Translations under genes and position numbers: made by a program | Shown: piece by piece, positions 61,606-64,000 of the stretch | Numbering within the stretch: the first letter of the stretch is position 1 | How the letters are laid out: each line of letters opens with the position of its first letter | Source of the DNA: Luteolibacter ambystomatis | GTDB taxonomy: Bacteria; Verrucomicrobiota; Verrucomicrobiia; Verrucomicrobiales; Akkermansiaceae | Direction of reading: 5' to 3' | Length of the DNA stretch: 64,000 bases | Assembly (NCBI RefSeq): GCF_018137965.1 | Contig: NZ_CP073100.1 | Location: 4,227,754 to 4,291,753 of the forward strand | Notes under the pieces: model-generated | Told to the model about the DNA's origin: nothing | The model's database searches: none | The model's input: only the letters and a program-made list of their open reading frames with translations

Positions 61606-62577
61606 TTACGGGACAAATAGTACTTTGCCCGAGCGTCCGCCTTCGTTCGCCCGGACCAGCGCCGACTGGTAGTCCTCCAGCGGATACACCGCGTCCACCG
61701 GCTGGACGAGCCCACCGGACAACGTCATCTCCGCGAGACGGCCGTACACCTCCGCGATCTCCGCATCCGACGCCTGCTCGATCCACTTGGTGATCCACAG
61801 GCCGCGGAACCGGAGATCCTTGAAAATGAGCAGACCGTTCGGAATCGTCAGCGGCCGCCGCGCCATCGCGCCATAGGTGATGTGGATCGCATGCGACGCC
61901 AACAGGTTCATCACGCGCAGCGCGCTTTCTCCTCCGACCGCATTGAAACCGAGCGCCGCGCCGGGTTTCCCCATCACCTGCTTCGCTTCCCGAAGGCCTT
62001 CCTCGCCATCGACCACGACATGATCGGCACCCAGTTCCTTCAGTTCCTCCACCAGTTCGGGACGACGTACGAAGTTCATCGTACGAACACCGATGGACTC
62101 CGCCAGCCGGATCACGCAGCGGCCCACCCCGGAGTTCGCCGCATTCTGGACGATCCACGAACCGGGCTCCGGCCGTTGGAAGCCGGTGAGTAGCTGCCAT
62201 GCGGTGGCCGGATTCACCTTCAGCATCGCCGCCTGCTTTGGATCGATCCCGGCGGGCACCTTGAACAGAACATCCCCCGGGACCTGCACGTGGCTGGCCC
62301 AGGTGGCGGAACGCCGCAGGAAAATCGCATGGTCCCCCGGCGCGAACCGTGCATCACGGCTCTCCACCACTTCCCCGCAGCCCTCGATGCCGGACACCGC
62401 GGGCAGCTCCGGCTTGATACCATAGGTGCCCTCGATGAAATTCAGGTCCGCGGGATTCACCGGCGCGGCCAGAATCTTCAACCGCACCCCGCCTTCCGCC
62501 AGTGTTGGCAGTTCCAGCGACTGGAGTTCCAGTACTTCCGGAGGCGGTCCGAAACGGGAGAAGGCGAGACGCTTCAT
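61606..62577 (-). CDS. Zinc-independent quinone-oxidoreductase-like MDR family protein
   Basis: 323 aa. The N-terminal GroES-like domain (MKRLAFSRFGPPPEVLELQSLELPTLAEGGVRLKILAAPVNPADLNFIEGTYGIKPELPAVSGIEGCGEVVESRD) and the Rossmann domain (GSWIVQNAANSGVGRCVIRLAESIGVRTMNFVRRPELVEELKELGADHVVVD) fit the medium-chain dehydrogenase/reductase family, mitochondrial trans-2-enoyl-CoA reductase/quinone reductase branch. It uses NADPH, and the true substrate is unknown. It converges with the squalene-cyclase-repeat gene, 12 bases away. Confidence 0.93.
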   Translation of the reverse strand: MKRLAFSRFGPPPEVLELQSLELPTLAEGGVRLKILAAPVNPADLNFIEGTYGIKPELPAVSGIEGCGEVVESRDARFAPGDHAIFLRRSATWASHVQVPGDVLFKVPAGIDPKQAAMLKVNPATAWQLLTGFQRPEPGSWIVQNAANSGVGRCVIRLAESIGVRTMNFVRRPELVEELKELGADHVVVDGEEGLREAKQVMGKPGAALGFNAVGGESALRVMNLLASHAIHITYGAMARRPLTIPNGLLIFKDLRFRGLWITKWIEQASDAEIAEVYGRLAEMTLSGGLVQPVDAVYPLEDYQSALVRANEGGRSGKVLFVP

Positions 62578-62900
62578 GGTAGGAAGCTAGGCGGAATCGA
62601 CATCTGGGCAAACCCCGATTGACCACTCTTTCGCACCAACGGTGCGGCCCATACCAGCCAGGGGTCGGAGACCCCTGGTCGAGCCGGTGTATGACCCGCG
62701 TCCTGAAAGGACGCCCCATATGGGTGGATTGCGTTGGATCGCCAACGCTCATAGTTCAAACTGTGCCCTCCCCTCATGGAGCGTCCCTACAGGACGCAGA
62801 AATCCGGGCCACACTTGCCAGGGGTTTGCACCCCTGGCTGGTATAGGTCGCACCGTTGGTGCGAAGATTCCATTACGCCAGTCAGCACAGAATGGTAAAA
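62578..62900. other. Gene-free region holding the multi-hairpin element
   Basis: 323 bases without a gene. Most of it (62629-62866) is the multi-hairpin repeat described separately. The remainder, up to the dehydrogenase stop at 62901, shows nothing else of note. Confidence 0.6.
62629..62866. repeat. Mirror-symmetric seven-hairpin repeat element
   Basis: Seven hairpins stand in a palindromic order. H1: CGCACC/GGTGCG (62632-62646) and H7 (62849-62863) share the same stem. H2: CCAGGGGTC/GACCCCTGG (62658-62678) matches H6 CCAGGGGT/ACCCCTGG (62818-62837). H3: GCGTCCT/AGGACGC (62698-62714) matches H5 GCGTCC/GGACGC (62781-62797). H4 in the centre is GCGTTGG/CCAACGC (62731-62748). The sides are also complementary to each other (for example ATACCAGCCAGGGGT against ACCCCTGGCTGGTAT), so the DNA could also fold into one long stem. 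It looks like a non-autonomous mobile repeat or large BIME. No ORF is inside. Confidence 0.75.
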
Positions 62901-64000
62901 TCACGGGAACATCCCGCGCTGCGCCTTGGCATCGGCCACCGTCTTGATCGCGATCGACTGCGCCGCCACACGCTGGGACACGCCTTGCCGCGCGGCAAAG
63001 GACGTCACCTTCTCGAAGGAGCGCTGGAGCATCGTCTCCAGCTTCGAGAGCACCTCGCGCTCGGTCCACTGGAAGTGCTGGAAGTTCTGCACCCACTCGA
63101 AGTACGACACCGTCACACCGCCGGCATTGCAAAGGATGTCCGGGATCACGTGAATGTCACCGCGCTGGTCGAGCACCGCATCCGCTTCCGGAGTGGTCGG
63201 ACCGTTCGCGCCTTCGGCGAGGATCTTGCACTGGAGCTTGCCCGCATTGTCGCCGGTGATCACGCGGTCGAGCGCACAAGGCGCAAGAACGTCGCAGGGC
63301 TGGCACAGAAGCTGGTCCGGATCGATCGGCTCCGCATTCGCAAAGCCGACCACCGTGCCGGTTTTCGCCACATGCTCGCGCAACGCGTGGACATCGAGGC
63401 CGCGGTCGTGCCAGATCGCGCCCTGCACATCGGAAATGCCGCGGATCTTCACACCGTAGCTGGCCAGCGTGTAGGCTGTGTGCGAGCCCACGTTGCCAAA
63501 GCCTTGAATCACCGCGCTGGCTCCCTCCACCGGCAGGTTGTTCTTGTGCAGCGCGCTGGAGGCCAGGAACGCCACGCCATGACCGGTCGCCTGCGCGCGA
63601 CCCGCGGACCCTTGCAGGCCGAGCGGCTTCCCGGTGACGATGGATGGCACAAGGTAGCCCGCATGCGTGGAATAGGTGTCGGTGATCCACGCCATCGTCT
63701 GCTCGTTGGTGCCCATGTCCGGCGCCATCACATCGATCTCGGGTCCGATGAATGGCAGGATCTCCATGGTGAACCGACGCGTCAGCCGCTCCAGCTCGCC
63801 GATGCTCATCGAGCGCGGATCGCAGGTGATGCCGCCCTTGCCACCACCGTATGGCAAATCCATCAGCGCGCACTTCCAGTTCATCCACATCGCCAGCGCC
63901 GCGACCTCGCCGAGATCGACCGCCGGATGGTAGCGCAGGCCGCCTTTCACCGGGCCGCGGGTGAGGTGGTGCTGCACGCGGTGGCCGAAGAACACCTTCA
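62901..64000 (-). CDS. Glu/Leu/Phe/Val dehydrogenase, partial (5' end outside window)
   Basis: About 366 codons are visible; the N-terminus lies beyond 64000. KVFFGHRVQHHLTRGPVKGGLRYHPAVDLGEVAALAMWMNWKCALMDLPYGGGKGGITCDPRSMSIGELERLTRRF is the diagnostic N-terminal domain, with the catalytic lysine in GGGKGG. The Rossmann domain follows with ASAVIQGFGNVGSHTAYTLASYGVKIRGISDVQGAIW. The reaction is NAD(P)-dependent oxidative deamination of an amino acid, most likely glutamate; specificity cannot be told with the N-terminus missing. Only about 40-60 residues should be absent. Confidence 0.95.
   Translation of the reverse strand, partial: KVFFGHRVQHHLTRGPVKGGLRYHPAVDLGEVAALAMWMNWKCALMDLPYGGGKGGITCDPRSMSIGELERLTRRFTMEILPFIGPEIDVMAPDMGTNEQTMAWITDTYSTHAGYLVPSIVTGKPLGLQGSAGRAQATGHGVAFLASSALHKNNLPVEGASAVIQGFGNVGSHTAYTLASYGVKIRGISDVQGAIWHDRGLDVHALREHVAKTGTVVGFANAEPIDPDQLLCQPCDVLAPCALDRVITGDNAGKLQCKILAEGANGPTTPEADAVLDQRGDIHVIPDILCNAGGVTVSYFEWVQNFQHFQWTEREVLSKLETMLQRSFEKVTSFAARQGVSQRVAAQSIAIKTVADAKAQRGMFP

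Follow-up and report, generated by a model that had tools for sequence, protein, structure and literature searches.

An intergenic array of inverted hairpin triplets in Luteolibacter ambystomatis, probably a gene-less derivative of a small single-strand transposon

The stretch of Luteolibacter ambystomatis DNA analysed here (the window, 64,000 nucleotides of contig NZ_CP073100.1) contains, near its end, an array of hairpins placed between a quinone-reductase-like and a glutamate/leucine-dehydrogenase-like (GDH) gene, both on the minus strand. The question raised by this locus is what kind of genetic object such an array represents and how it came to lie there. It is one copy of a DNA element that is dispersed and probably mobile, and there are good grounds for regarding it as a MITE/REPIN-like offshoot, lacking a gene, of a small HUH-Y1 (single-strand) transposon whose ends are inverted and carry three hairpins each. 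The array and its neighbours comprise the following features:

61606-62577, minus strand: neighbouring quinone-reductase-like gene (open reading frame, named by eye from its translation)
62631-62719, plus strand: left half-unit, A-linker-B-spacer-C (H1, H2, H3), scoring 89.0 bits with covariance model R1, of which it is itself a member, and 22 with the triple detector
62632-62646, plus strand: left hairpin A (H1), compensatory changes known for helix 1
62654-62657, plus strand: tetranucleotide CCAG, 5' foot of left hairpin B, read from the sequence (TAG in most relatives)
62658-62678 (62657-62679 in the wider delimitation), plus strand: left hairpin B (H2), found by the detector, compensatory changes for helix 2
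62698-62714, plus strand: left hairpin C (H3), found by the detector, compensatory changes for helix 3
62731-62748, no strand: central hairpin (H4), other copies having different centres
62776-62864, minus strand: right half-unit, inverted (H7, H6, H5), scoring 88.5 bits with R1, of which it is likewise a member, and 21 with the triple detector
62781-62797, minus strand: right hairpin C (H5), found by the detector
62818-62837 (62817-62838 in the wider delimitation), minus strand: right hairpin B (H6), found by the detector
62838-62841, minus strand: foot CCAG of right hairpin B (CTGG on the plus strand), read from the sequence
62848-62864, minus strand: right hairpin A (H7), found by the detector
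62901-64000, minus strand: neighbouring GDH-like gene, cut by the window end (open reading frame, named by eye)

An earlier note on this DNA described seven hairpins with shared stems in a single intergenic region, and these are indeed present at 62632-62864. H1 and H7, H2 and H6, and H3 and H5 are counterparts by reverse complement, and the two halves of the array are near-perfect reverse complements of each other. The long-stretch pairing of the two sides that the note reported is equally borne out, with outer arms of 36 nt (62630-62665 and 62830-62865) that are 94% complementary and inner arms of 27 nt (62698-62724 and 62771-62797) that are 81% complementary. The symmetry is that of an inverted repeat, and the term 'mirror-symmetric' used in the note does not apply in its strict sense. 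The seven hairpins are real, but their organisation is one of three plus three in inverted units around a 56-bp centre; H4 lies outside the conserved unit because the centres of other copies, which measure 12-71 bp, are unrelated to it. RNA folding of the array gives a z score of about -13 for each strand with none of 200 shuffles as stable, and among 1276 stretches of 238 nt sampled in the window two have six strong hairpins, which is the maximum, and 713 have none. Beyond the two half-units R1 has no match above 19 bits in the window, and the three extra tiles in which the detector fires when slid across it (17641, 59481 and 62961) are unsupported by R1.

The half-unit has a fixed order, which is hairpin A, a linker ending in AG, hairpin B, a spacer and hairpin C, and it is inverted on the opposite side. 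In the clear copies hairpin A is joined to hairpin B by a linker with CCCATACCAG or similar in it, about 20 nt separate B from hairpin C, a CCAT-like motif comes after C, and the whole is inverted on the other side. The linker between A and B is mostly 10-13 nt long and ends in (N)TAG, or in CCAG in the window. As the note had held, the array exceeds a single REP or BIME in complexity. A first DNA search of the own genome gave 15 matches, which include places matched on both strands. Nineteen half-units picked by hand from 10 elements were aligned to the three-hairpin structure (alignment A2), in which 91.5% of cells are paired compared with 73.3% in shuffles, and both sides have changed in 11 of 21 pairs and in 78 cells, a cell count that is 28.2 +/- 4.2 in shuffles and at most 16 in slid structures. 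Compensatory changes are present in all three stems, so that copies of the kind the note proposed to look for do exist; loops and linkers are retained between copies whose stem sequences vary. A covariance model derived from A2 (R1) finds 36 half-units in the own genome at E <= 1, 19 of which are members of the model, and these form 11 convergent pairs with the other 14 matches single. Nine of the 11 pairs are gene-less, the window element included, another encloses a transposase gene, and in the last an IS-like ORF, recognised by eye, breaks up the unit. Pattern searches returned 53 matches versus 28 in the control for hairpin A, and an uninformative 147 versus 166 in the control for hairpin B with three mismatches.

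The interrupted copy (L088, G000:C1:2020711-2022943) contains, besides the IS-like ORF, other DNA including a metallo-beta-lactamase-fold-like ORF, likewise recognised by eye, and its IS-like pieces are edged by a recurring short sequence.

The own genome has six matches to the Pfam family Y1_Tnp, of which three are near full-length and score 81-87 bits. Each of these three genes, P0001, P0002 and P0003, is flanked on both sides by an inverted A-B-C triple (six of six flanks) with its own stem sequences; the pair that brackets P0001, an IS200-like Y1 transposase gene, is of the R1 type, and the P0002 and P0003 loci have the same end architecture with other stems. In the full-length element hairpin C of each end faces the gene. 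All three proteins have the HVH and Y---Q--HH motifs and lie above the cut-off of 55 bits of the NCBIfam IS200 model NF033573 (57.3, 73.4 and 66.4 bits). The note had pointed to a RAYT or other transposase with a matching recognition sequence, and a matching transposase does exist, but it is of the IS200 family: P0003 reaches 19.1 bits with the NCBIfam RAYT model NF047646, whose cut-off is 80, P0001 and P0002 have no listed match to it, and a canonical RAYT is rejected on that one score among the three proteins. P0001 contains one in-frame stop codon (TGA), whereas P0003 is free of stops, and since the R1-type gene is seen in this genome only in this stop-bearing form, the element family may have lost its mobility in this strain. 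Upstream of P0002 (L085:1000-1380; G000:C1:2407500-2407880) the half-unit is tandemly repeated several times, unlike at the other two own loci, and a partial Y1_Tnp match at G000:C1:4123278-4123445 lies within an open frame of 1213 codons.

Dispersal is also observed across the genus, where R1 has matches in 35 of 41 genomes at E <= 0.01 and TnpA is found in 28 of 41 at E <= 1e-12, with 0-6 genes per genome. The 150 best genus matches to R1 include 32 neighbouring half-units at most 120 bp apart, of which 25 are convergent, four divergent and three tandem; three convergent pairs spaced 474-633 bp apart each have a TnpA gene inside. Thirty TnpA loci of the genus, less two from the own genome and five with a match shorter than 330 nt, leave 23 that were unused in setting the detector, and the triple is present at 11 of these, at four of them on both sides, compared with 0 of 17 in the control; the detector was applied here in its widened form without further adjustment. 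Full copies of about 240 bp from G002, G012 and G024 were aligned, truncated and more distant matches being left out, and the resulting 19, of which the query copy is one, are 79-95% identical to it. By their flanks these copies sort into 12 groups, with homology fading just outside the A hairpins.

Presence and absence of the element can be seen directly at one site. At G002:C207 a sister copy occupies 289 bp (element with margins) in G002 versus 15 bp in G012, with flanks that are 97% and 92% identical, so that the empty-site comparison suggested in the note has a positive outcome. The site is also filled in G024, where the contig ends within the element. No target duplication and no exact cut site are discernible among these three genomes, the ends being fuzzy and gain versus loss unpolarised. 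For the window's own site, GDH is found at E <= 1e-100 in 14 of 41 genus genomes including the own one, with 12 relatives at 72-85% identity, and the quinone-reductase neighbour lies within reach of GDH in three other genomes. In a search of 13 of the 14 GDH loci the array is absent in all three relatives that keep both genes, which are possibly one clade. The gap between GDH and quinone reductase measures about 46 bp in one relative versus 323 in the window.

The association of such ends with TnpA extends to other phyla. A scan of public contigs with an alignment of the three proteins was limited to the best 80 of 515 relatives and the sample is therefore not random; among these the Y---Q--HH motif is found in 80 of 80 TnpA and the HuH motif in 79. 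Upstream and downstream flanks are inversely similar at 49 of 77 loci, taking a score of at least 46, which is just above the 99th percentile of mismatched pairs (45.9), and this holds for 45 of 56 non-Bacteroidota and 4 of 21 Bacteroidota loci. The triple detector demands AG before hairpin B, with the base preceding AG free, and was counted at 75 of the 80 loci, the other five having short flanks or runs of N. Of the 75, 41 show an oriented triple on one or both sides and 27 on both; these figures are not blind, since the detector had been widened after inspection of the top 30 loci. By phylum, labelled by hand, these are 41 of 54 non-Bacteroidota and 0 of 21 Bacteroidota, so that all 21 of the latter are among the 34 loci in which no triple is detected. 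The detector is silent in regions shifted by 700, 1200 and 1800 bases (0/54, 0/48 and 0/47), fires once in 375 shuffled flanks, and in the wrong orientation fires at 5 of 75 loci, at one of them on both sides. An earlier, stricter version that limited hairpin B loops to at most 7 detected a triple at 31 of 72 loci, at 15 of them on both sides, with 1/54 and 1/48 in shifted controls.

The base before AG is T in 60 of the 68 halves, giving feet of hairpin B that read TTAG (27), GTAG (20), ATAG (13) or other (8), compared with CCAG in the window, and the TAG foot is found on hairpin B only and not on A or C. TnpA distance and array distance are correlated across 31 loci (r = 0.68, with none of 5000 permutations as high); for pairs below 60% identity r is 0.26, and the correlation is confounded by host kinship. 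Some of the Bacteroidota members (L182 and L180) contain many repeats of an A-like hairpin with an adjacent CTACCATAAT-type motif.

Several known systems share parts of this design. REPtrons, with their REPs, BIMEs and REPINs, likewise have a Y1 transposase gene framed by inverted hairpins, copies that lack the gene and a TAG foot at one hairpin, but here there are three ordered hairpins per end, an IS200-type protein, a modest copy number and a 240-bp unit. The hairpin foot of RAYT/REPtron systems reads 5' GT[AG]G; here hairpin B has GTAG in 20 of the 68 halves. With IS200/IS605 elements the array shares the transposase family by NCBIfam and a foot tetranucleotide at the place of the guide, whereas its ends are inverted with three hairpins each; IS200 ends have a single subterminal hairpin each and are not inverted copies. 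The parts of Quentin et al. (2018, PMC6006769) drawn on here describe IS200 hairpins at both ends and give Y---Q--HH as the signature of TnpA-Y1 subclass 1.2, to which the present transposases would belong by motif. In common with that subclass they carry Y---Q--HH in 80 of 80 and occur in few copies per genome (0-6 in the genus). The same parts characterise the subclass as "generally without typical terminal IS200 secondary structure features" and as residing mostly in Cyanobacteria and Bacteroidetes, whereas most of the non-Bacteroidota members sampled here have inverted triple-hairpin ends. None of the papers listed in the literature searches describes triple-hairpin ends for subclass 1.2 in its title or abstract opening, which is no proof of their absence from print. 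In TIRtrons, too, a Y1 transposase lies between inverted repeats at the termini, some of which are self-complementary, and the TIRYT motif is GGGGWSAS in the consulted part of Di Nocera et al. (2013, PMC3733652), while TIRYTs map mostly to subclass 2.1 in that of Quentin et al. (PMC6006769). Class 3 of TnpA-Y1, which occurs in Planctomycetes and Acidobacteria, has several atypical hairpins around the gene too, but its Y motif is given there as YV[VI][AENY]EQ and its foot as CnGA, against Y---Q--HH and mostly NTAG here (PMC6006769).

It is proposed that in the full-length relative two inverted ends enclose a Y---Q--HH-type TnpA gene some 145 codons long, and that in the window the gene has been replaced by the 56-bp centre, which would leave an end plus an inverted end. 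TnpA from a full-length copy would bind the hairpins on one exposed strand, with hairpin B and its foot tetranucleotide putatively taking the place of the REP/IS200 guide, would cut near the outer A hairpins, and would move or copy the gene-less unit in trans. The TAG foot of hairpin B occupies the position that GTAG has in REPs and that the guide tetranucleotide has in IS200/IS605. For REP systems, A3-G4 of GTAG is described as able to select a CT cleavage site in the consulted part of PMC8266576. Single-strand recognition and mobilisation in trans by TnpA are what we infer from the sequence comparisons, and the element would then work like a REPIN or MITE, with which it shares dispersed gene-less copies having the ends of a transposase-bearing element as well as presence and absence at one site.

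Among the alternatives, a REP/BIME system proper, with canonical RAYT-driven REPs clustering as BIMEs by chance, is unlikely. It would fit that the hairpins are inverted, that 60 of 68 halves have a (G/T/A)TAG foot, that the transposase is low in copy number and that there are copies without the gene, all of them traits described for REPs in the consulted parts of PMC6006769 and PMC8266576; yet the transposases carry Y---Q--HH, lie above the IS200 cut-off and fall far under the RAYT model where reported, and the unit is a fixed ordered triplet rather than one REP, with the TAG foot on B alone. It is highly improbable that the array is instead a functional RNA or transcription element, such as a bidirectional terminator, an attenuator or an mRNA stabiliser, whose structure is selected and which has spread by duplication. 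Its strong folds on both strands, its compensated stems and its location between two same-strand genes could be read in that sense, but a known RNA family is rejected because no Rfam family matches the array at the gathering threshold, and an intrinsic terminator because no G+C stem followed by a T run occurs in 62300-63200, in agreement with the note, which had not found a terminator a sufficient explanation. The association with transposase genes far above controls and the absence at the syntenic site in three of three relatives also speak against it.

Scarcely probable, too, is that movement of the ends depends mainly on a different transposase, such as that of a carrier IS, and not on the subclass 1.2 TnpA: an IS-like ORF does lie within one copy and the cognate TnpA gene of this genome is interrupted, but that ORF occurs in one of the 11 own pairs only and triple ends stand beside TnpA across phyla. 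A one-off inverted duplication or replication error, finally, is hardly credible. It would account for halves that are 94% complementary across the outer 36 nt, but it is rejected by the many copies with different stems dispersed in the own genome and its relatives, which equally exclude the sole, unconserved copy that the earlier note had envisaged as a degenerate duplication.

The derivation from a HUH-Y1 transposon provides candidate DNA partners for a transposase subclass that has been described without any, and an element that combines an IS200-type protein with REP-like inverted hairpins. It would also account for palindromic intergenic arrays of this kind in Verrucomicrobia and related phyla. 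The wider proposition is evenly balanced, namely that subclass 1.2 TnpA serves a class of single-strand transposons, widespread but hitherto undescribed, that have inverted hairpin triplets as ends, with the middle hairpin bearing a REP-like TAG foot, and whose mobile offspring are the gene-less arrays. If this is true, the group would stand, in its mechanism, between IS200/IS605 elements and REP/RAYT systems. With the present element the origin of REPs from IS200-like transposons becomes testable with defined proteins and substrates.

Some minor observations concern the termini. In the window, hairpin A is bordered on its outer side by CT dinucleotides (CACTCTTT and GGAATCTTC), an observation that is no more than a lead. 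Among the own halves of A2 the A stems agree between the two sides of an element more consistently than the B or C stems, which may point to hairpin A as the site of terminal pairing or cutting. Several copies in relatives (L270, L273, L278, L272 and L280) have an additional inverted repeat (CTCCCCGTTACCCACATCTTG-like, about 25 nt) lying beyond hairpin A, which may represent longer termini or an insertion into another palindrome.
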